Shown here: positions 26,166 through 38,527 of the stretch, one piece after another
Layout of the letters: the number at the start of each line of letters is the position of its first letter
How positions within the stretch are numbered: position 1 is the stretch's first letter
DNA from: Candidatus Binataceae bacterium
GTDB lineage: Bacteria > Desulfobacterota > Binatia > Binatales > Binataceae
NCBI GenBank assembly: GCA_036495685.1
Contig: DASXMJ010000191.1
Coordinates: 1-64,000, forward strand
DNA: 64,000 nucleotides
Reading direction: 5' to 3'
Translations under genes and position numbers: made by a program
The notes under the pieces: model-generated
Databases searched by the model: none
Seen by the model: only the letters and a program-made list of their open reading frames with translations
Told to the model about the DNA's origin: nothing

Positions 26166-26373
26166 CGTCCACGTCGCGTCCTAGGTAGGCAAAAGGGTGC
26201 TCGAGGTTTGCCCCCTACGAGGTGGAGTGGAGAAGCGTCTGGGGATAGAGCTTTCCCGGCGAATGCACCGGTACCGGGACCCCAGGAAGGGCCTCGTGGA
26301 ATCGCTTTCAGTAAACGCGGTAGTGCTAAACCAAATCTCCACAACCAAAACATCACGAATGGAGGCGGATCTA

Positions 26374-27357
26374 ATGAATTATCGGCAACTTGGGCGCAGC
26401 AATCTCCGGGTCGCGACCATCGGCCTGGGATGCATGGGGATGTCCGATTTTTACGGTCCGCGTGACGACGCCCAGTCTGTCGCGACCATCCAGCGGGCGC
26501 TCGACCTGGGGGTCAACTTTCTGGACACCTCAGACGCGTACGGTCCCCACAAGAACGAGGAACTCGTCGGACGTGCAATTCACGGTCGTCGGGATCAGGT
26601 GCTGTTGGCCACCAAGTTTGGAATCGTGCGAGGATCGGACGGCTCGCGAAGTATCAACAGCAAACCCGAGTATGTTCGCCGTGCATGCGAGGCGAGTCTG
26701 AAGCGTTTGGGAGTCGAAACCATCGACCTCTACTATCAGCATCGTGTCGATCCCGACACTCCAATTGAGGAAACCGTCGGCGCGATGGCGCGCCTGGTTG
26801 AAGCAGGGAAGATCAGAACCCTCGGCCTGTCGGAGGCCTCGCCACAGACCATCCGGCGCGCGTGCAAGGTTCATCCGATCACGGCGCTGCAGACAGAATA
26901 TTCTCTTTGGAGTCGTGATCCCGAGGACGAACTACTGGGCCTCTGCGCAGAACAGGGAATTGCCTTCGTAGCGTACAGCCCGCTGGGCCGCGGGTTCCTT
27001 ACCGGACAAATCAAAAAAATCGAAGATCTGGCTGCTGACGATTTCCGCCGCATGTCGCCACGCTTCCAGGGCGACAATTTTCAGAAGAATCTGCAGCTGG
27101 TCGACCGAATCGCTAAGATCGCGAGTGAGAAAGGCTGCACTCCGTCCCAGCTAGCCCTGGCCTGGGTAACCGCGCAGGCGCCCCATATCGTCACGATTCC
27201 CGGCACCAGACGAATCAAGTATCTCGAGGAAAACGTCGACGCAGACAAAATTCGCTTGACGCCGGAAGAACTGAAACGAATCGATGAGGTCGCGCCACGC
27301 GGAGTGGCGGCGGGGGAGCGTTATCCCGCGGTCCTGATGGGTTCGATCAATCTCTAA
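26374..27357 (+). CDS. Aldo/keto reductase
   Basis: 327 residues from ATG 26374 (GGAGG nine bases upstream). TIM-barrel AKR with the catalytic tetrad visible: Asp and Tyr in [18 protein letters not shown], Lys in LLATKFG, His in LYYQHRVD. The NADPH site [14 protein letters not shown] follows. Pattern and length match the YajO/AKR13-like group that reduces aldehydes and ketones with NADPH. Cytoplasmic. Confidence 0.92.
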
Positions 27358-27665: not shown

Positions 27666-28556
27666 CTACCAATGCGTCGTTGATGGAACTTCGCCAGCGA
27701 TGGGGCGCTGAAGATGCTCTTGCCCGGTAAATTGGCGGAACAGGTTTTGCGGCCCAAGCATCGTTAGCATGATCTGCGCCGCGGGCACGAGATAGAAGAT
27801 CGAGCCGGGTACCCACATGATGGCGCCAGCGACGATTTGATCGCCCATAGGCGTGAAACCGGCGACTGACGGCACGCTCGCATAGTAGGGGTAAAGGAGG
27901 CGGCCAGAGAAAATGAACAGCGCCGAGAGGATCGTGTTCTGGCCGTCGGCGAGGAACAGGTAGGGCAACAACGCCCATCGCGGCCATCGCGCGACGCTGG
28001 GCCACGGCTGGATGACGGGAAACCAGAACATCAGGGCTGTCGTGAAGAAGCATGCGTGCTCGACCACGTGCCAAGGGTCCGAGCGCAGGGCGAGCTGGAA
28101 GGTTGCGGGGAGGTGCCAGATCCAAGTGGCGAGCACAAAGGCGAACCAGCATACCAGCGGCTGTGTGAGCCATCGGTAGGCGCTCCTGGTTAGCCTCGGG
28201 CGGAGCGCGCGGCCAACCAGCTTGGCGGCGCGGGGGGGTAAGCCCCGGAGCAGAGGTATCGCCGGCGCTCCAGCGAGCAGGAGCGTCGGCGATACCAGCA
28301 TCAGCAGCAGGTGCTGGGTCATGTGCACCTGCAGCAGAAGGTCGTCGAGCGCCTCGAGCGGCGACGCCACAGCGAGGGCGAGGGCGGCGATGCCGCCGAG
28401 GAAGGCGCCCAGATGCCAGCGCGTAAAGCGCGCCGGCATCTGACGGTGGACACGGCGGTAGCCGCGGACGTAGAGCGTGGCGATCGCGATCAAGGTCGCG
28501 AGCGTAGTGACCGGAGGCCGCCACGACGCGAGCGCAGTTTGCAGCGAGGGGTCCAT
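27666..28556 (-). CDS. ctaG: Cytochrome c oxidase assembly factor CtaG (caa3-type)
   Basis: 296 residues with seven or so membrane segments. The signature of the caa3_CtaG family is present: LQVHMTQHLLLMLVSPTLLLAGAP, ATWIWHLP and VVEHACFFTTALMFWFPV, with conserved histidines (HMTQH, WH, EH) thought to handle copper. It assists copper delivery to heme-copper oxidase. Its ATG directly abuts the stop of the cytochrome b gene (TAG-ATG). Last gene of the respiratory cluster, as befits an assembly factor. Confidence 0.9.
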   Translation of the reverse strand: MDPSLQTALASWRPPVTTLATLIAIATLYVRGYRRVHRQMPARFTRWHLGAFLGGIAALALAVASPLEALDDLLLQVHMTQHLLLMLVSPTLLLAGAPAIPLLRGLPPRAAKLVGRALRPRLTRSAYRWLTQPLVCWFAFVLATWIWHLPATFQLALRSDPWHVVEHACFFTTALMFWFPVIQPWPSVARWPRWALLPYLFLADGQNTILSALFIFSGRLLYPYYASVPSVAGFTPMGDQIVAGAIMWVPGSIFYLVPAAQIMLTMLGPQNLFRQFTGQEHLQRPIAGEVPSTTHW

Positions 28557-30023
28557 CTAGTTGCTCGAAACGGGAACCGCCGGTTGCGCCGAATTGCGCG
28601 CCGGTGGTTCGCTGCGCGGATGCATCGTCGCGAGGAATGCGACGATCGCGTTGACTTCGGCGGGTGAAAGATTCTTTCCGTAGGCCGGCATGTTGCCACC
28701 GCCCTGAAGAATCTGGCGGACGATCTGGCTGCGGGTCAGGCGTGTGGCAGTGGCGTCGAGCGCAGGCCCACGCATTCCGCCCTGGCCCCCGAGGGAGTGA
28801 CAATTGCGACACTGCTTGCTTTGCACGAGCAGCGCGCCCCGGAGCTCGAGCGGAGTGCGGCCTTTCACGTAGTCGACGGGCGTCGGCGCCGCGCTCCACG
28901 CTTCCATGTCGGGAGACCACGGCGAGAACGTGCCGAGCCAGGTGAGGCTGCCGATCGTCGTGACGATCAGGATGACGATTACCACCGAGATGGGACGGCG
29001 GCGCCAGCTCTTCTCGCCGGTGCCAGACAGGAAGGGCAGGGCGAACAGCAGTCCGATTGCGATGGGCGGACCCGTGAGCATCAGAACGGTTTCGGTCCAC
29101 GGCGGCAGCAACGCGAACACCGAAAACAGCCACAAGAAGAAGAAATCTGGCCGCGGCACGGTCTGGATGATGGTCGGATCGGGCTGGCCGTTGGGACCGA
29201 TTGGGCCGGCGAGCGCCGCCACGGCGAGGAGGGCCAGGATGATCAGTCCGGCGAAGACGAGATCCTTCTGCGCAGCGTACGGCATGAACGGCTCGCCGTC
29301 GCGATGCACCATCTCCTGGTACTGCTGGAGGTAGGTGGAGCGCCGCACGATCCGACCCGGCATCGGCCATTCGTTGATGCCGAGTCTCAGCACGAGAAAC
29401 AGATGCAACCCAACGAAGCCGATCAGCGCGCCGGGGATGACGAAAACGTGCAGCGCGAAGAAGCGCGACAGCGTCCCGCCGGCGATGATCGGTCCTCCGA
29501 GTATCAGAGCGACGATCTTAGAGCCGACGATCGGAGTGCGGCCAGCGATCGATGCGCCGATGCCTAGCCCCCAGTATGCGTTCTGATCGAAACGGAGCAC
29601 CTGGCCGGTGAACGCCATGCCGAGGGTGCATAGCAACAGGAAGCAGCCCGCGACCCAGGTCAGTTCGCGCGGATATTTGTACGCGCCAAACAAAAAGACC
29701 TGAATCATGTGGATCAGCATCAGGGCGACCATGAAGTTGGAGCCCCATCCGTGCAGGGCGCGCAGATACCAACCGAGCGGCTGCTTGTAGTTGAGGAAAA
29801 TCAGACTGTCCCAGGCGCGATCAGCGGCGGGCGTGTAGACCGTGGCGAGGCAGATGCCGGTGACGACCTGCAGAATGAAGACGACCAGGGTGGCGCTGCC
29901 GAAGACGTACCACCAGCTGGCCGAGCTGCGCGGCACGGGGTGCTCGGCAACCCCGACGATCGCATCGGCCACCTGGAGGCGCTCGTCGAACCATCGGCCG
30001 ATCGATTTGAGCAGGTCGTTCAT
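28557..30023 (-). CDS. Cytochrome b fused to a C-terminal cytochrome c domain (bc-type quinol oxidoreductase)
   Basis: 488 residues. The N-terminal part is a cytochrome b/b6 with heme ligands H91/H105 and H192/H207; the 14/15 spacing is that of b6-type proteins. Then comes a subunit-IV-like part with RPDFFFLWLF at 291-300 in place of the usual PEWY motif of the quinol-oxidising site. After about residue 390 a heme-c domain follows (CRNCH at 405-409, likely Met ligand in GGGNMPAYG). Electrons from quinol could thus pass to its own heme c. ATG 30023 overlaps the Rieske stop (ATGA), so the two are coupled. The frame is open upstream to 30212, but that part is antisense of Rieske. Confidence 0.9.
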   Translation of the reverse strand: MNDLLKSIGRWFDERLQVADAIVGVAEHPVPRSSASWWYVFGSATLVVFILQVVTGICLATVYTPAADRAWDSLIFLNYKQPLGWYLRALHGWGSNFMVALMLIHMIQVFLFGAYKYPRELTWVAGCFLLLCTLGMAFTGQVLRFDQNAYWGLGIGASIAGRTPIVGSKIVALILGGPIIAGGTLSRFFALHVFVIPGALIGFVGLHLFLVLRLGINEWPMPGRIVRRSTYLQQYQEMVHRDGEPFMPYAAQKDLVFAGLIILALLAVAALAGPIGPNGQPDPTIIQTVPRPDFFFLWLFSVFALLPPWTETVLMLTGPPIAIGLLFALPFLSGTGEKSWRRRPISVVIVILIVTTIGSLTWLGTFSPWSPDMEAWSAAPTPVDYVKGRTPLELRGALLVQSKQCRNCHSLGGQGGMRGPALDATATRLTRSQIVRQILQGGGNMPAYGKNLSPAEVNAIVAFLATMHPRSEPPARNSAQPAVPVSSN

Positions 30024-30520
30024 GCTTCCGGCTTGCCGAGAGTCGGCAGCTCGCCGGCGTAGATCCACAGCTGGCCCGCTTCGATCTTGTATCTGTATTG
30101 ATACAGCGGGCGCGGCGGCGGCCCCGAGGCGTGCCTGCCGTCGGCGTAGAAAACGCCACCATGACACGGACACATGAACAGCTCGGACTCGGCGAACCAT
30201 CGGACGGGGCATCCGAGGTGCGTGCAGTTGATGGCGAAGACCCGGAAGTCATTACCGGTCATATGGCGCACCCAGCATGGAATCTTTGCGGTTTCGCCGT
30301 CCCATTGTTTCTTAAACGGATTTACATATTCGGCCAGACGAGTCTGATTTTGCGGATAGTCAGTCAGCGGGCCGAGCGATATCCAGTTAAGCCAGATGAA
30401 ACGTCGCGCAGGCGAGAGTATATATCCGACAATCGGTATTGCGAACACTGCAATAGCGATCGCGTTGATAGCTATTCCGAGACTGAACAGGAAATGACGA
30501 CGAGTAGTCTGGTCTGCCAC
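30020..30520 (-). CDS. Rieske [2Fe-2S] protein of a bc-type complex
   Basis: 166 residues. Twin-arginine-type N-terminus (TTRRHFLFSLG) with one membrane anchor (about 14-36), then a Rieske fold with both cluster loops: CTHLGC at 99-104 and CPCHGG at 117-122 (ligands C99, H101, C117, H120; disulfide C104-C119). It accepts electrons from quinol and passes them to the heme c partner. Located between the diheme cytochrome c gene (1-bp gap) and cytochrome b (ATGA overlap). Confidence 0.94.
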   Translation of the reverse strand: MADQTTRRHFLFSLGIAINAIAIAVFAIPIVGYILSPARRFIWLNWISLGPLTDYPQNQTRLAEYVNPFKKQWDGETAKIPCWVRHMTGNDFRVFAINCTHLGCPVRWFAESELFMCPCHGGVFYADGRHASGPPPRPLYQYRYKIEAGQLWIYAGELPTLGKPEA

Positions 30521-30521
30521 T

Positions 30522-31229
30522 TCATTTCCTCGAACTCAGAGTCGCAGGACGTTTCGAAACGAGCCAGGCGACCACATCCGCGACCTGCTGAACGGTGAGG
30601 GGTTGGCCGGAGGCAGCGTGCTTCCAGTCGGGATGGCCGAGGTCCGGCCGTCCCGCGATCACAATCGTGCGCAGGTACTGATTGCTGACCAGCGAAAGAA
30701 ACGAGGGATCGACGACTGAGCCGGCAGCGATAGGTCCGCTCGCGTCGGGGCCGTGGCAGGACTGGCAGTTCGAGGCGTACACCTGCGCGCCATTCTCCAG
30801 GTTGCCTGCTGTCCCGAGCGAGTACGACGGAGCGCCGTCGGCCGCTCCAGGAGCACCCGCCCATTTGTCGCGGATACCGGCAATCAGCAAGTCGATCTGA
30901 TGGCCGGTCAGACTGCCGCCGGCTTCTTGCGCGAATGGCGGCATTGGGGTGCCGGGAACTCCTTGGGCGATCACGTGGCGCAACGAAGTATCGTCAACGA
31001 TGCCCAGATACACGGGATTGTTGAGGTCGATCGCCGCGCCGAAGCGGCCGTCGGCGCCGTGGCATCCGGCGCAGTTCCCCAGGTAGAGCGTGCGGAAATC
31101 AGTCACGTCAGTCGGCCGCAGCGGAAAATCGGCGAGCGTAGGACGCCCGGGAGCGGAACGGCAGCCGGTGATGAGGAGCGCGGTCAACGACACGCCCACA
31201 AAAAGCGATCTTACGACGTGCGGGGTCAA
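30522..31229 (-). CDS. Diheme c-type cytochrome lipoprotein
   Basis: 235 residues from TTG 31229, three bases after the preceding gene's stop; the frame is open further, but through the upstream gene. Lipoprotein signal (VSLTALLITGC) followed by two cytochrome c domains: NCAGCHG at about residue 55 and NCQSCHG at about residue 155, with candidate Met ligands in GTPMPPF and later. It likely carries electrons from the bc-type complex to the CoxB heme c. The TTG start is the only suitable one before the signal peptide. Confidence 0.85.
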   Translation of the reverse strand: MTPHVVRSLFVGVSLTALLITGCRSAPGRPTLADFPLRPTDVTDFRTLYLGNCAGCHGADGRFGAAIDLNNPVYLGIVDDTSLRHVIAQGVPGTPMPPFAQEAGGSLTGHQIDLLIAGIRDKWAGAPGAADGAPSYSLGTAGNLENGAQVYASNCQSCHGPDASGPIAAGSVVDPSFLSLVSNQYLRTIVIAGRPDLGHPDWKHAASGQPLTVQQVADVVAWLVSKRPATLSSRK

Positions 31230-31230
31230 A

Positions 31231-32067
31231 TCAGTTCTGACCTTCGCGGTCACCCCCGAGTCCCGGAGCCTCGATGCCGGTGCGCACCGCGAACGGAAGG
31301 TGCTGCATAGTGGTGACGCGTTCGGTTTGATTGACCACGAAGCCCGCGACCGCGCCAAAGGCGATCTGGCACAAAATGAACCAGCGCCACTCGATACGCG
31401 CATCGAGGACCGGGTTGATCACGCTAAGCGACGACCACAATAGGCCGGTCCACAGAAGGGGCGCGACGATCGCAGCCCAAAACGCCGGGTAGCGGGGGAA
31501 CATCGGCAGCATGACGCCGTACAGCAGGCCGACCAGGATAGACGCAGAGGCGTGAATGATCAGGGCAACGACAAAGGCCTCCGGAATAAACGACGAAAGC
31601 GTCGCAGTGCTGGCGTTGGCGAGATTGGCAAGCACGGTCGCCGCAAGGACGTTGGCTGTGTACCAAAGGCTGTGATGAACCACCACGCTTTGCAGGACCG
31701 CGAGCCCCGCCATGGCAATTCCGCCAGCGATGCCCCCCTTTATACCCGCGGAGTACGAGTAAATTTCCAGCGGCAGGATCGCGCGATTGCCAAGCTCGCC
31801 GACGTGCAGGTAATCAACGCCGATCGTCGCAGGCACGATGGCTGCAGGGGCGGCCTCGACCCGCAGCGGCTCACGATGCTCGACCGGCAACACTTCCCCG
31901 AACCATCCGACGGCGCCCGAAATGAACAGCACGCCCCCGACCAGCGTAACTGCGACGTTGGTCACCAGGCCGGCAAACACGAGGGTTAGGCCGAGCGCCA
32001 TCAGCATCGGCCATGGAGTCGGCGCGGGAGCTTCGATTGGATTGTCGGGGTTCCCCTCTACAGGCAT
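31231..32067 (-). CDS. Integral membrane protein of the respiratory cluster, unassigned
   Basis: 278 residues, mostly hydrophobic. Residues about 20-62 form two tight membrane segments with a C-terminal WFGEVLPVEHRE, reminiscent of small oxidase subunit IV. A periplasmic or cytosolic loop follows, then five or so membrane segments (from about 108 to 250). No heme or metal motif is evident. Its fixed place between CoxC and the cytochrome c gene, ten bases after CoxC, argues for a structural subunit of the oxidase or supercomplex. Confidence 0.8.
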   Translation of the reverse strand: MPVEGNPDNPIEAPAPTPWPMLMALGLTLVFAGLVTNVAVTLVGGVLFISGAVGWFGEVLPVEHREPLRVEAAPAAIVPATIGVDYLHVGELGNRAILPLEIYSYSAGIKGGIAGGIAMAGLAVLQSVVVHHSLWYTANVLAATVLANLANASTATLSSFIPEAFVVALIIHASASILVGLLYGVMLPMFPRYPAFWAAIVAPLLWTGLLWSSLSVINPVLDARIEWRWFILCQIAFGAVAGFVVNQTERVTTMQHLPFAVRTGIEAPGLGGDREGQN

Positions 32068-32076
32068 TGCATTAGC

Positions 32077-32679
32077 TCATCGTCCAATCACGTAGACGGT
32101 AAGGAATACCACAACCCACACTGAATCCACGAAGTGCCAATACCAGGAGAGAACGTCGGCGCGCTCGACGTGACGCTCGCTCATATAGCCGAGCACTGTC
32201 AGGATCAGCACGAGCAAAATTAAAACCAGTCCTATTGTCACGTGCAATGCATGCAGTCCGACGAGTGAGTAATAGGTGGTTCCGAAAAGATTTGTTCGAA
32301 GGGTCAGTCCCTCGTGATAGATGAGGCGGTGCCATTCGATGGCGGTGCCGATCAGAAACTCAGCGCCCAGTACAAAAGTCACGAACCACCACGCGCTGAA
32401 ATTGCGAATAGAGCCGGCGCGCAGCGATCGGATCGCGATAACGATCGTGATGCTGCTTGAGAGCAGGCAGATCGTATTCACGATCGGCACGGAGAGGACC
32501 TCTCTAGGTGAAGGACCGCTCAAGCTCTTCCCGATATAGAAGATGTAGGCGACCACGAAGATCAGGAAGAACGACGATTCGGTGAGAATGAGGGCGAGAA
32601 TCCCGACACGACCGCGATAGGGGAGTGTCTCGCTCCACGGTGTTGACGACGCGCGCATGGTGGTCGATGCGGCGGCCAT
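32077..32679 (-). CDS. coxC: Cytochrome c oxidase subunit III
   Basis: 200 residues with five membrane segments, the short CyoC/CoxC form. Family motifs: LTESSFFLIFVVAYIFY at the start, GAEFLIGTAIEWHRLI in the middle, and LVGLHALHVTIGLVLI and DSVWVVVFLTVYVIG at the end. It is a core structural subunit of the heme-copper oxidase and contains no metals. 16 bp downstream of coxA. Confidence 0.93.
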   Translation of the reverse strand: MAAASTTMRASSTPWSETLPYRGRVGILALILTESSFFLIFVVAYIFYIGKSLSGPSPREVLSVPIVNTICLLSSSITIVIAIRSLRAGSIRNFSAWWFVTFVLGAEFLIGTAIEWHRLIYHEGLTLRTNLFGTTYYSLVGLHALHVTIGLVLILLVLILTVLGYMSERHVERADVLSWYWHFVDSVWVVVFLTVYVIGR

Positions 32680-32695
32680 CAGACAGCGCTCCGGT

Positions 32696-34381
32696 TCATT
32701 CGTATCTCCAGTCCGGGTCGTCGGGATGCTTCAGGTCCCACAGCGGGCGGCGACTGCGAACCACCGGCAGAGTCGCGAAGTTGTACTCGGGCGGAGGCGA
32801 GGTCGTCGACCATTCGAGCGTCCATGCGTCCCAGGGATCGTCGCCGGCCGGCTCTCCTGATCGCAACGACCGAACGACATTGATCACGAATATGAGCACC
32901 GCGATGCCCTGTACGAGCGCGCCGATCGACGCGACAAAATTGAGGGTCTCGAGTCCGCGCCCAGGTTGATAGGTATAAATACGACGCGGCATTCCTTGCA
33001 TGCCGGCGAAGTGCTCAGTATCGAATGTCAAATGGAAGCCAATCACGAAAAGCCAGAAATGCCAACGGCCAAGACGCTCACTGAGCATTCTGCCGGTAGC
33101 CTTTGGAAACCAATAATAGATGGCGGCGAATATCATGAAGACAATCGCGCCGACCAGTACATAGTGAAAATGCGCTACGACGAAGTACGTATCGGTAAGC
33201 TGCCAATCGAAGGGTGCAACCGCGAGCATGATGCCGGTCAGACCCGCGACCAGAAACTGGAACAGGAAGGCGATACTGAACAGCATAGGAACCTTGAAGC
33301 GCAATTTTCCACGCCACATGGTTCCGAGCCAGTTGAATATTTTGATGCCAGTGGGAACGCCGACCAGCATGCTCGAGGCTGCAAAGAAGGAATTGCCCGC
33401 CGGCGTCATGCCGACCGAGAACATATGATGCGCCCATACGCTCATGCTGATGAATCCGATCGCGCAGCTGGCGGCCACCATCACGCTGTAGCCGAAGATA
33501 ACCTTGCGGGAGAAAACCGGAATGATTTCAGACGCGAACGCGAAGGCCGGAATCACCAGTATGTAGACCTCGGGATGGCCGAAGATCCAGAAAAAGTGCT
33601 GCCACAGGACTGCCGAGCCTCCCGCCTGAGTGTCGAAGAAATGTGCACCCAGAAAACGATCGAGCAGCAGCATCACTTGCGCAGCCGACAGCGGCGGCAG
33701 CGCCACCAGAATCATGAACGACACGACGGTAGCCAGCCACACGAGCACCGGCATCTTGGTGAGCGTCATTCCTTCGCATCGCATGCAGAACACGGAGCTG
33801 ACAATGTTGGCCGCAGTCGCAGTCGAGCCCACGGTCGTGAGCAGAATACTGAGTATCCAATAGTCGGTACTGTTGCCGCGCGAGAACGGCAGTTCCGTGA
33901 GCGGTGCATATGCGAACCATCCGACATCGGGCGCGCTGCCGGCGCCATACAAGCCATCGCCGCCGATATAGCTGAAGTAGAGGAGCAGGGCACCGAAGAA
34001 CCATAGCCAGAAGCCGAAGGCGTTGAGCCGCGGAAAGGCGAGATCGCGCGCACCGATCATGAGCGGCACCAGGTAGTTGAACAAACCGGTGAGGATCGGC
34101 ATCCCGACCAGGAACACCATCGCCGTGCCATGCATCGTCAGCAGGCGGTTGAAGACCTGCGGCGGCACGATGCCGGAATTAGGTACCGCGAGCTGAAGCC
34201 GAATGGTGGCGGCCTGGAGGCCTGCGACCAGGAAGAAGAAAAGGCCGCCGGTGATGTACATCAGTCCCAGCCGCTTGTGATCGACCGTGATGACCCATTC
34301 GTGCAGCCGGCCGAGGATCGGAAGCTGCTCGAGGTCGTCTACGGCGTCCAGTCCCATTTCGCGATCGATAGTTCCCGCCAA
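32696..34381 (-). CDS. coxA: Cytochrome c oxidase subunit I (heme-copper, A-type)
   Basis: 561 residues, 12 membrane segments. VDHKRLGLMYI near the start. The CuB/K-channel segment HFFWIFGHPEVYILVIPAF has the Tyr that is cross-linked to His in A-type enzymes. YFVVAHFHYVLVG holds the CuB and heme ligands in helix X. It reduces O2 and pumps protons in the inner membrane. The start is TTG 34381, with an excellent AGGAGGGG nine bases upstream; ATG at codon 9 has none. Confidence 0.95.
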   Translation of the reverse strand: MAGTIDREMGLDAVDDLEQLPILGRLHEWVITVDHKRLGLMYITGGLFFFLVAGLQAATIRLQLAVPNSGIVPPQVFNRLLTMHGTAMVFLVGMPILTGLFNYLVPLMIGARDLAFPRLNAFGFWLWFFGALLLYFSYIGGDGLYGAGSAPDVGWFAYAPLTELPFSRGNSTDYWILSILLTTVGSTATAANIVSSVFCMRCEGMTLTKMPVLVWLATVVSFMILVALPPLSAAQVMLLLDRFLGAHFFDTQAGGSAVLWQHFFWIFGHPEVYILVIPAFAFASEIIPVFSRKVIFGYSVMVAASCAIGFISMSVWAHHMFSVGMTPAGNSFFAASSMLVGVPTGIKIFNWLGTMWRGKLRFKVPMLFSIAFLFQFLVAGLTGIMLAVAPFDWQLTDTYFVVAHFHYVLVGAIVFMIFAAIYYWFPKATGRMLSERLGRWHFWLFVIGFHLTFDTEHFAGMQGMPRRIYTYQPGRGLETLNFVASIGALVQGIAVLIFVINVVRSLRSGEPAGDDPWDAWTLEWSTTSPPPEYNFATLPVVRSRRPLWDLKHPDDPDWRYE

Positions 34382-34396
34382 GCGCGTTCCCCTCCT

Positions 34397-35452
34397 TCAG
34401 CGCAGAGTCGCCAGGTAAGCCACGAGGTCGTCGAGGTCCTTGTCGTCGAGATTCATCGCCGGCATTAACGCCCCAGGCTTCATCACGCTTGGATCGCGCA
34501 CCCACACACGCAGATGATCGAGATTATTCATGGCGACACCGGCGCCGATGGTCTCGCGCGCCATCAGATGCGTCAAGTCGGGGCCGAAGCGGCCGTTCGC
34601 ACCGGTGCCCTGAATCGCATGGCAGTTGACGCATGCGGTGGATTCGAAGATCTGCTGGCCGTGCGCGACTGACGCATCGACAGCCGCCGGCTGCTTTTGC
34701 GCCGCGACCCAATTATCGAAATCCGCGCGCGGCTCGACGATCACGCGCAGAAGCATCATCGCGTGCTCGGTGCCGCAGAACTCGGCGCATTGTCCCAGAT
34801 AGGTGCCCGCGACGTGCGGATCGATCCACATCGTGTTTTTCTTGTTCGGGATCACATCAGTCTTGCCGGCCAGACGCGGAACCCAGAAGCTGTGCGCTAC
34901 GTCCACCGACTCGAGATCGAGAAAGGTTGGTGTGGGATTTTTCGGATCGCTCAGCGGGACGTGAAGCTCGTTGGCGGTCACGATGCCGAGCTCAGGGTAG
35001 TGAAACTCCCACCACCATTGATGCCCGATCACGTGGACGCTAATGGCGCCCGGCGGGCGCCTCGGCGCCTGGACCGAATAGATGGTGCGCGCGGTGGTGA
35101 GGAAGAGGACCAGCACGATAAGGACGGGGACGGTCGTCCACGCAAACTCGATCGGATTGCTGCCGTAGACCTGCGGCGGTTCGCGACCGTTGTCACCCTG
35201 GCGGGCGCGATCTCTGATGAGGCTGATGACCAGGAGGCCGGCGACGATCAGGAAAATCACAGCGGTGATCGAACACGTGAAGAACGCCAGCGTCCTGATC
35301 TCGTGCGCCGGAGTCGAGACCGTGTCGAAGATGCTGCTTGGGGGAATCTTCGAGTTCGACTCGCCCATGCCCCAGTCGTTCGCAAACGCGGCGACGGGCA
35401 TAGTGGCAACGATGACAATAGTGAAGAACCAGCGGTGCACACGTCCGAGCAA
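34397..35452 (-). CDS. coxB: Cytochrome c oxidase subunit II with fused heme-c domain (caa3-type)
   Basis: 351 residues from TTG 35452; GTG at codon 5 is an alternative. Signal peptide to about residue 25, two membrane helices (about 53-80 and 105-125), then the cupredoxin domain with the CuA site GQCAEFCGTEHAMM and WWWEFHYPELG. The C-terminal cytochrome c domain has ACVNCHAIQG and likely Met in GALMPAMN. This makes the oxidase caa3-type: it accepts electrons through its own heme c. First gene of the cluster. Confidence 0.94.
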   Translation of the reverse strand: MLGRVHRWFFTIVIVATMPVAAFANDWGMGESNSKIPPSSIFDTVSTPAHEIRTLAFFTCSITAVIFLIVAGLLVISLIRDRARQGDNGREPPQVYGSNPIEFAWTTVPVLIVLVLFLTTARTIYSVQAPRRPPGAISVHVIGHQWWWEFHYPELGIVTANELHVPLSDPKNPTPTFLDLESVDVAHSFWVPRLAGKTDVIPNKKNTMWIDPHVAGTYLGQCAEFCGTEHAMMLLRVIVEPRADFDNWVAAQKQPAAVDASVAHGQQIFESTACVNCHAIQGTGANGRFGPDLTHLMARETIGAGVAMNNLDHLRVWVRDPSVMKPGALMPAMNLDDKDLDDLVAYLATLR

Positions 35453-36127: not shown

Positions 36128-37220
36128 CTACCCGATGCGGGACAGGAGCTCGCGCGCTCGCTCGATGGCAGTCTCCTGATGGGGCTGCAATTCCTGGTGG
36201 GCGCGACTTTGCACCCATTCCAGATACGGATCGCAGACTTCAGTGCGTAGTCCCGCGAGCTCTTCAACAATGGCCAGTCCACAAAACGGTACGTACGTCC
36301 TCTGCGTATCCGCCTTCGTGTGCAAGCACCAAGCGGCCTGCGCAGAGATCTGAGGCGGCCTGCACCATCATGTTCGTCATTCGTCGATAACATTCGCTGT
36401 GCAGCATCATGCGGCCCAGCGGATCGTACGCGTTCGCATCGAGACCGCTGGCCACCACGATCAATTCGGGCTTGAAGTTGTACAGGGCCGGCACGACTAC
36501 ACGCTCAAAGGCCGCAAGGTAAGAACCCACCCCAGATCCCGGTGGCATCGGGATGTTCAGATTTAGTCCCGCACCCGGACCCAAACCGTTGTCGGAGATA
36601 GAGCCGCTTCCCAGCGGGTACAGGTTGTCCTGATGAATCGAAATAGTGAGCACCTCGGGATTCTCGTAAAAGGCCAGTTGAGTGCCATTCCCATGATGAA
36701 CGTCCCAGTCCACCACGGCAATTCGATTGACGGCTAACCTGGCCCTGGCATACATCACCGCGACAGCAATGTTGGCGAATATGCAAAAGCCGCGGCCGCG
36801 ATTCGGTTCGGCATGGTGACCAGGTGGGCGCACCAGCGCATACGCGTTGTCGGCCGCTCCTTTCACAACTTCTTCAACGGCCGTCATTACGCCACCAACG
36901 GATAGCATCGCAATTTCAAAGGCGCCCGCACCGAACGGAGTCAGCTCGCCCGCATCGCCGCCGCGCTGCGCCGAAAGCTGGCGAATCAATTCGATGTACT
37001 CGTGGGTGTGGAACCGTACGAGGTCGACTTCTGAGGCCGGTCTTGGCCTGATGGATTGCAGGTTATCGAGGAGCCTCGTGGCGGCCAGAAGATTGTAAAA
37101 CCGTCGCTTGGTTTCCGGGTTCTCGAAGCCCGCACTGGGTTGGGTCGGGAACGAGCCGCCGCCGGAATCGTGCCACATGTAGAGCTCATCGAACACGAAC
37201 CCTGTCTTTCTTTTCGGCAT
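36128..37220 (-). pseudogene. Histone deacetylase/acetylpolyamine amidohydrolase-family gene with a one-base frameshift near its 3' end
   Basis: ATG 37220 starts a class II HDAC-like protein with VRPPGHHAEPNRGRGFC, VVDWDVHHGNGTQLAFYENP (Zn and catalytic His-Asp residues), SIHQDNLYP and VASGLDANAYDPLGRMML. Within LVLAHEGGYAE the frame shifts and ends at 36264. The expected last part (TYVPFCGLAIVEELAGL, RTEVCDPYLEW, ELQPHQETAIERARE) continues in another frame to 36128. An extra G in GAGGACG at about 36299 explains it. All catalytic residues precede the shift, but the core strand GGYxxxYVPFCG is disrupted. Confidence 0.85.
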
Positions 37221-37336
37221 CACATTCCGGATTTGCGCCCAGCCGGGGCGATTAAACCAGCTCCGCTTCCCGCCTGAAAAATTCCTCGCAGAGAAAGCCT
37301 GTGCCGGTACGTTTTCACGTTGGGCAGCGGATCAGG

Positions 37337-38119
37337 CTATTTGTCCCTCGATCCATAAGATACAGCTAGCCCCGCTCGCGCGTCGGACTGGATGCCGTAT
37401 TGTGGAATCGGATAACGCAATCCGTTCGATGCAAGCCGCTTCATTCCTTCGATCGTCTTGGGCAGAAAATGGGGCGGAATCGCCATCAGCAGCTCTTCAT
37501 CCAACACACCACCATAGCGCCGCTCCGCGTAGCACGGGATCGAAAGACTCGGCTCTCCAGTTTTGAGCGCCCGACCCCATGAGTCCGCGCAAGCCGATTC
37601 TCCGACCACACCCCATTGAAATTTGCGATAGCCCGACCACTGAAGGCCATTGATGAAAATGATCATCTGGCCCGGCGTTGCGTAGATCAGACAAATATCG
37701 GGGGGATTGAGTCGTCCAGAAACCAGCGGCGATACCGCCATCGCGGTGTAGCGGCCGTGTGGCACGGTGTCCATCGCGTGCTGATGCGCCGATGAATCCT
37801 CGAGCGTGGAGTACCAGACTCCCGCCATCGCCTTGCCCGAGAGCCATTCCTCGTCTTGTGGATGTAACCCAATCACGGCCCCGCACTGCGCGCCAACCAG
37901 ATCTTTCATAGTGATACCAACCGTCCATCCTAGGCGCGCCGCCTGAGCGACGATCTGATCGGTGGTGTGAGTCGACTTGGGTCGCCGGATTTTTGGGATG
38001 GCTTCCATCTCCTCAGCCGCGCGGAACAACTTCATGCCGATAGGCGTGGTGCGCAGCCGCAACAGCTTGTTCAAATCGTCGACAATCGCATTCCAGTCGT
38101 AAGTGACTTGATCGGACAT
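37337..38119 (-). CDS. DUF169-family protein
   Basis: 260 residues from ATG 38119 (the frame is open to 38194, but that part is implausible). DUF169 pattern: LLRLRTTPIGMKLFRAAEEM, then VGITMKDLVGAQCGAVIGL with cysteine, MIIFINGLQWSGYRKFQWG and ESACADSWGRALKTGEPSLSIPCYAERRYG. DUF169 proteins are widespread, mostly in anaerobes and deltaproteobacteria, with undefined function; the conserved cysteines suggest a metal or cofactor. Cytoplasmic. Confidence 0.88.
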   Translation of the reverse strand: MSDQVTYDWNAIVDDLNKLLRLRTTPIGMKLFRAAEEMEAIPKIRRPKSTHTTDQIVAQAARLGWTVGITMKDLVGAQCGAVIGLHPQDEEWLSGKAMAGVWYSTLEDSSAHQHAMDTVPHGRYTAMAVSPLVSGRLNPPDICLIYATPGQMIIFINGLQWSGYRKFQWGVVGESACADSWGRALKTGEPSLSIPCYAERRYGGVLDEELLMAIPPHFLPKTIEGMKRLASNGLRYPIPQYGIQSDARAGLAVSYGSRDK

Positions 38120-38527
38120 CCGGCCATACCTCTCTGACAAAATACGGCAGAAACCTCCCAAAGCTCCATGGCCCCCTGACTTTCGCCCTCCCACTCAAAC
38201 CGCAGGGAGAACATGCCTTCTCGTTCACCTAGGAACCGAATCCGCCCAAACCGACGAGTGCTCTCCAACAGAGCGAGCGCATAGCATTATGGCCATACGG
38301 ATCCCCCACCTAGTGCCGCGCGAAGCCTGCGCGACGGCCCATGCGCGGCGTTTAACAGACTGCCTTCTAAATGGAAAATGTCGTAGCAGAGCACCCCAGC
38401 TCTTACCTTCTCGCGGCTCGCAGCCCAGCCAAAAATCCCGCTTGGCAACGCCGATTATTCCACTTCAATTGAAGCATCCTTGCGCGCATGATAGATGATG
38501 GCGGTTCTAAGCGGCCAGACTCGGCGG
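38120..38527. other. Intergenic stretch
   Basis: About 400 bp between the DUF169 gene and tRNA-Cys. No gene seen; it should contain both promoters. Confidence 0.35.

Follow-up and report, generated by a model that had tools for sequence, protein, structure and literature searches.

Can a single gene cluster carry electrons all the way from quinol to oxygen, and if so, which of its hemes would take the place of cytochrome c1? This question is raised by eight genes on the minus strand at positions 27666-35452 of the 64,000-nucleotide stretch of DNA analysed here (the window), which opens contig DASXMJ010000191.1 of an uncultured soil bacterium (Candidatus Binataceae). From first to last they are coxB, coxA, coxC, a gene for a membrane protein, a diheme cytochrome c gene, a Rieske gene, a gene in which cytochrome b is fused to a cytochrome c (cytochrome b-c), and ctaG. 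We consider it likely that this cluster is a bc-caa3 superoperon, orthologous to a cluster of Acidobacteria, and that it works as the quinol-to-oxygen path proposed below. The core idea of a bc-caa3 superoperon has already been published (PMC8407424).

The source genome (G000) comprises 4.69 Mb in 245 contigs and is 96% complete. We compared it with loci of relatives (L numbers), which are the best 80 of 278 confirmed stretches, picked by their match to the fused cytochrome b-c, so that the fused protein is present in them by design and the other seven genes are not; their taxa are given as labelled in their records. Two sets of genomes (G numbers), a sample of the phylum (198 genomes) and one of the class (148 genomes), were also searched; C numbers denote contigs.

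Gene content and proposed electron path

A first-pass annotation of this DNA had described eight genes on one strand, and Pfam matches and gene calls confirm both their families and their place (Table 1). CoxB matches COX2 (7.6e-17) and Cytochrom_C (7.6e-15) and lies above the NCBIfam cut-off for TIGR02866 (CoxB), while CoxA matches COX1 (2.5e-154) and lies above the cut-off for TIGR02891. The match of CoxC to PF00510 is restricted to profile positions 117-257 of 258. The diheme protein has two CxxCH motifs and two Cytochrome_CBB3 stretches. Cytochrome b-c combines PF00033 (Cytochrome_B, 2.1e-42), PF13631, PF13442 (Cytochrome_CBB3, 7.2e-13) and a weak PF00032 match on one chain, and its matches in the PDB are to cytochrome b and cytochrome c6.

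With the chosen starts, the gaps from coxB to ctaG measure 39, 16, 9, 1, 1, -4 and 0 nucleotides (nt), the negative value being the overlap of cytochrome b-c with the Rieske gene. The first of these, between coxB and coxA, shrinks from 39 to 15 nt if coxA starts at TTG 34381 rather than at ATG 34357. Spacing of -4 to 39 nt agrees with co-transcription of the eight genes as a predicted operon.

The Qo-loop motif of cytochrome b is usually PEWY and reads PDFF in the window. Among 78 rows of relatives, PDFF occurs 45 times, PDYF 21 times and PDFY eight times (together 74/78), with four other forms; a PDFF-type motif may have a bearing on quinone type or redox tuning.

In the path that we propose, the Qo site of cytochrome b would oxidise quinol, and one electron would pass through the Rieske protein to the heme c on the C-terminus of cytochrome b. 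From there it would reach the CoxB heme c, passing either through the lipid-anchored diheme cytochrome or alongside it, and then move to CuA and on to the a/a3-CuB centre, where CtaG would be responsible for CuB insertion. The membrane protein would supply two COX3 helices that CoxC lacks, and its extra membrane domain would dock the diheme cytochrome or the bc part. A bc-caa3 supercomplex, predicted here from the genes, is plausible and has been suggested in print for Acidobacteria (PMC8407424).

Table 1. Genes of the cluster, listed from coxB to ctaG (window coordinates).
Gene or product	Position	Strand	Features
coxB (subunit II, CuA domain and C-terminal heme c)	34397..35452	-	351 aa, TTG start 35452
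coxA (oxidase subunit I)	32696..34357	-	553 aa from ATG 34357; alternative TTG 34381
coxC (short subunit III, without N-terminal part of COX3)	32077..32679	-	COX3 PF00510 1.3e-17
Membrane protein	31231..32067	-	278 aa; residues ~4-66 like COX3 helices I-II; ~97-250 four-helix membrane domain
Diheme cytochrome c, lipoprotein-like	30522..31229	-	235 aa, TTG start 31229, lipobox-like LITGC
Rieske iron-sulfur protein	30020..30520	-	166 aa, GTG start, RR near N-terminus; PF00355 1.3e-7
Cytochrome b (b6 and subunit IV parts) fused to C-terminal monoheme cytochrome c	28557..30023	-	488 aa, ATG 30023
ctaG (caa3 assembly factor)	27666..28556	-	PF09678 (Caa3_CtaG) 1.9e-56

Conservation and spread of the cluster

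The nearest records by cytochrome b-c identity come from two 'Deltaproteobacteria' metagenome-assembled genomes (MAGs) from peat and a Candidatus Binataceae MAG (87, 81 and 80%). The eight-gene order, searched for across genomes as the first-pass annotation had suggested, recurs complete in 46 of the 80 loci, and contig ends account for most of the misses. Gene by gene, cytochrome b-c and Rieske were found in all 80, the diheme cytochrome in 77, the membrane protein and ctaG in 71 each, coxC in 66, coxA in 62 and coxB in 55, one of the coxB matches (L044) being a cross-match in which the cytochrome b heme domain was hit instead. Hosts are labelled mostly as Acidobacteria, and also as Binatota, Rokubacteria, Verrucomicrobia, Myxococcales and others; this conservation across phyla, with taxa as labelled, rules out chance or artefact. 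The labels of L071 (Klebsiella pneumoniae) and L038 (Betaproteobacteria) disagree with the tree described below, and that of L030 (Chloroflexi) with its near-twin L029 (Rokubacteria); all three are probably mislabelled MAGs or misbinned contigs.

The heme-binding motifs are equally constant. Once incomplete proteins at contig ends had been left out of motif counts and alignments (alignments A1, A2, A3 and A4 used 67, 38, 52 and 56 of the 80 loci), one CxxCH was present in cytochrome b in 78/78 complete rows, two in the diheme protein in 71/72 (the exception, L015, is a short 169-residue reading) and one in CoxB in 51/51 true rows (52/52 including the L044 cross-match). The two halves of the cluster also vary together: coxA and cytochrome b distances correlate with a Mantel r of 0.904, a value that none of 2000 permutations reached (49 sequences, with 48 of the 80 loci as input).

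Within the phylum sample, 67 of 198 genomes gave some cytochrome b match at 1e-20, mostly to the b part only. In the class, 40 of 148 genomes matched cytochrome b-c at 1e-60, 25 of them with a close type (>=62% identity) and 15 only with distant types (36-47%), and in the window's family close and distant types never occurred together in one genome at 1e-60. One same-family match, G247:C298:1732-3189, and L006 1729-3192 (Candidatus Binataceae) are probably one contig.

Candidates for the role of cytochrome c1

The first-pass annotation had noted the lack of a separate cytochrome c1 gene, and the Pfam cytochrome c1 family (PF02167) indeed gave no match in the source genome; the control matched in 1 of 14 genomes (Caulobacter), so this negative covers c1 of that type only. 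Neither a bc1 operon with c1 nor a loss of the fusion among relatives was found, the fusion being kept in every complete row of cytochrome b, partly by design.

More informative was a compact sister type of the cluster, read in five loci (L153, L154, L155, L158 and L159), whose cytochrome b-c is 41-47% identical to that of the window. These clusters hold coxB, coxA, coxC, ctaG, Rieske and cytochrome b-c, and none of the five has a diheme match. In four of them a short piece matches the membrane protein, and only within its residues 9-85; in L159 none was found, and about 2.4 kb lie between its cytochrome b-c and Rieske genes. CxxCH frames on the compact coding strand are those of CoxB and cytochrome b, with one heme each, plus one 64-residue frame in L154 that we take as spurious. 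In a midpoint-rooted tree of 30 of the 80 loci, ten fetched regions and the window, with long outgroup rows, eight-gene and compact rows fall on opposite sides of a branch (support 100/100 and 99/97). Because the compact type keeps the fused heme without a diheme gene, the likely stand-in for c1 common to both cluster types is the b-fused heme, and the diheme cytochrome is likely an add-on. The annotation had suggested that the task of c1 could fall to both; the first half of this agrees with our comparison, and the second does not, since the compact clusters do without the diheme protein. A diheme protein that is required as c1 is ruled out by the existence of the compact type.

In Bacillus and Actinobacteria, the cited passages assign this job to a heme domain fused to subunit IV or to the diheme QcrC (PMC3475470, PMC9145763). 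The diheme protein of the window could likewise be the direct acceptor of electrons from the Rieske protein, like actinobacterial QcrC, with the b-fused heme as a side carrier, and most of it does align to the actinobacterial QcrC model (1e-9), with further matches to cytochrome c subunits of bc1 complexes in the PDB (best 9e-10). However, CcoP subunits outrank these among the PDB matches (1.5e-19), and its QcrC score is 38 bits against a curated cut-off of 200, so that the likeness may be generic, and the five compact clusters retain the b-fused heme in the absence of the diheme gene. We therefore regard a QcrC-like role as improbable and favour the b-fused heme.

At L156:8063-9715 and L161:6807-8525, beside a Rieske gene, lies a third and distant form of cytochrome b, whose fused region carries two CxxCH motifs; no coxA match was found in the 16-17 kb read at these loci.

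The membrane protein and a putative split of subunit III

At 0.001 no Pfam family matches the membrane protein; a loose cut-off yields DUF7541 (0.0058) for its N-terminal helices and DUF5693 (7.8) for its C-terminal domain. A profile built from 68 membrane-protein sequences matched subunit III chains in the PDB at positions 10-67 (best E 0.0017), and all nine PDB chains found up to E 1 are named subunit 3 or III. Similarly, 19 of the top 20 VIA rows for an AF2 model of the protein (pLDDT 86.3) are cytochrome c oxidases or supercomplexes, with model residues 3-69 aligned to the first 1-78 residues of chains of 254-273 residues, several of which are named subunit 3. As the N-terminus thus resembles helices I-II, the part that the CoxC match lacks, the sequences and the model suggest that COX3 may be split in two, with helices III-VII in CoxC and I-II in the membrane protein.

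The four-helix C-terminal domain, modelled alone, reached a pLDDT of 89.9. Foldseek returned nothing for it at E <= 0.001, and VIA ranked WbaP highest (Z 6.1, root-mean-square deviation 4.3, 124 residues aligned); such weak fold matches are no proof of a new fold. The domain is present in 26 of the 148 class genomes. The diheme query found 45 of 148 at 1e-12, 26 of them at <=1.4e-55, the next best genome scoring 6.6e-27. The domain set and the close-diheme set are the identical 26 genomes: all 25 in which cytochrome b is of the close type, together with G246, where the copy is located close to the beginning of a contig. The 15 genomes restricted to distant cytochrome b types are absent from both lists. 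The probable role of the extra membrane domain is to dock either the diheme cytochrome or the bc part.

Other respiratory genes and the case for a linked chain

The suggestion in the first-pass annotation of a chain with no soluble cytochrome c is not supported by the genome search: four or more additional small proteins combine a CxxCH motif with a Pfam cytochrome c match (on C143, C38, C188 and C241, with leader sequences by eye); further cytochrome c matches lie on C73 and C84. These small cytochromes c may be candidates for serving other enzymes. COX1 matches occur at three further places, one of them partial. On C136, molybdopterin/FeS and NrfD proteins are encoded together with caa3 genes for a heme-bearing subunit II and a COX1-COX3 fusion, a cluster that we read as alternative complex III (ACIII)-like with caa3; this rules out the eight-gene cluster as the only quinol-to-oxygen route of the cell. 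A 2021 survey of Binatota names alternative complex III as their complex III, in all Binatota genomes (PMC8262859, in the passage cited). A split cytochrome b6 and subunit IV lie near the end of C67 (C67:48256-50315, L083), and near the start of C9 (C9:446-3196, L104) a protein of 916 residues is encoded in which CxxCH occurs eight times, with an aa3 oxidase further along that contig; the two ends may be one cluster broken by assembly. The genome also gives 21 Rieske-domain matches, mostly in open frames of about 300-650 codons, most of which look like ring-hydroxylating oxygenases.

The further oxidases and small CxxCH proteins fit an alternative in which the bc complex and the caa3 oxidase are co-transcribed but separate, linked by a mobile small cytochrome c from elsewhere, the operon serving regulation only. 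It also draws on three of the 80 loci (L029, L030 and L039), where the bc half stands without coxA or coxB matches upstream, and on a 2024 report that electrons in Acidobacterium capsulatum reach caa3 or cbb3 via a cytochrome c (PMC11636273, in the passage cited). Such an arrangement would, however, leave heme c built into both complexes, with a diheme protein between them in one gene unit, and it has to be set against the strong co-inheritance of the two halves. We consider it possible but doubtful, and prefer the superoperon as a linked quinol-to-oxygen path.

Several points weigh against this preferred reading. The other small cytochromes c could carry electrons too. No ctaG match was found in L011, L022, L025, L057, L075 and L078 despite 1.5-10 kb remaining, nor any coxA or coxB match in the ~6.4 kb upstream in the three loci just named, so the eight genes are not inseparable. 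The Mantel correlation can stem from shared ancestry as well, and coxA and cytochrome b share their nearest neighbour in only 29 of 49 cases. For the membrane protein, the matches to COX3 helices are weak (Z 5.1-6.0, E 0.0017), and helical bundles reach such Z by chance; an unrelated transhydrogenase row ranks first in VIA (Z 6.2), and Foldseek gave no match with the model at 0.001. Biochemistry for these proteins was not found in the literature searched, which consisted of open-licence PMC papers.

Two cluster types at one chromosomal site

Beside ctaG, the window carries an aldo/keto reductase gene (26197-27357, plus strand), and past coxB lie a histone-deacetylase-domain gene (36264-37223) and a DUF169 gene (37337-38194). 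In L153, from the window's own genus, a compact cluster stands between the same aldo/keto reductase (82%, 343 aa) and DUF169 (94%, 257 aa) genes; it is oriented the other way round, and the deacetylase gene is missing. The DUF169 neighbour is also present in L158; the other 12 of 14 loci compared, including L001-L005, have none of the three flanking genes. Because the eight-gene and compact types form well separated clades, the simplest reading of these flanks is that one cluster type replaced the other at this site. The two types adjoin in the midpoint-rooted tree with its long outgroup rows, and the diheme module may have been either gained or lost.

A more speculative picture, which we put forward tentatively, joins these observations: the membrane protein might act as a staple, with COX3 helices I-II and a four-helix hold on the diheme cytochrome or the bc dimer, in a soldered III-IV supercomplex, both cluster forms being exchanged as whole modules, even at the same site.

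Comparison with known systems

The closest counterpart is the "bc1-A1 caa3 superoperon" of Acidobacteria described by Trojan et al. in 2021, who suggested a supercomplex bypassing soluble carriers (PMC8407424). There, as here, A1 caa3 genes lie upstream of the bc1 (Rieske/cytochrome b) genes in one cluster; the host here is a member of the Binatota. L065, labelled Acidobacteriaceae bacterium KBS 83, a strain covered by that paper, holds all eight genes and falls with the window in the same eight-gene clade of our tree. According to that paper KBS 83 has more than one such superoperon, of which L065 would be one. The words 'fused' and 'diheme' are absent from its main text. Among the open-licence PMC papers searched, no text was found that names the fused b-c, diheme or membrane protein of this cluster, and neither the compact sister type, the site swap, the split COX3 nor the module of diheme cytochrome plus membrane domain was found in print.

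The following comparisons refer to the cited passages of each source. The actinobacterial bcc-aa3 supercomplex likewise has bc and oxidase genes in one operon (Corynebacterium glutamicum) and a diheme cytochrome c as a wire (PMC8361435, PMC9145763), whereas here heme c is carried by CoxB and by cytochrome b, and the diheme protein is lipoprotein-like. Those actinobacteria lack other cytochromes c; the source genome has others, which sets it apart from an obligate III2IV2 system. Bacillus likewise has a subunit IV part to which a heme c is fused, a caa3 oxidase with heme on subunit II, and CtaG (PMC3475470, PMC9145763), but its cytochrome b is split into two chains, whereas here b6, subunit IV and heme c form one chain and the bc and caa3 genes are joined. 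In Bradyrhizobium and Planctomycetes, cytochrome b and a c-type cytochrome also share one chain (PMC4013037); the fused partner is called c1 there and is CBB3/c6-like here, in a genome without a PF02167 match. The canonical bc1 complex, with its separate cytochrome c1 of that family, differs in the same respect.

Set beside these systems, the cluster extends a published soil-bacterial superoperon to the Binatota, and its two forms, with and without the diheme cytochrome, provide a natural deletion series for asking which heme replaces cytochrome c1. It also brings to light a conserved subunit that is assigned to no Pfam family and may, across many soil bacteria, link complexes III and IV.

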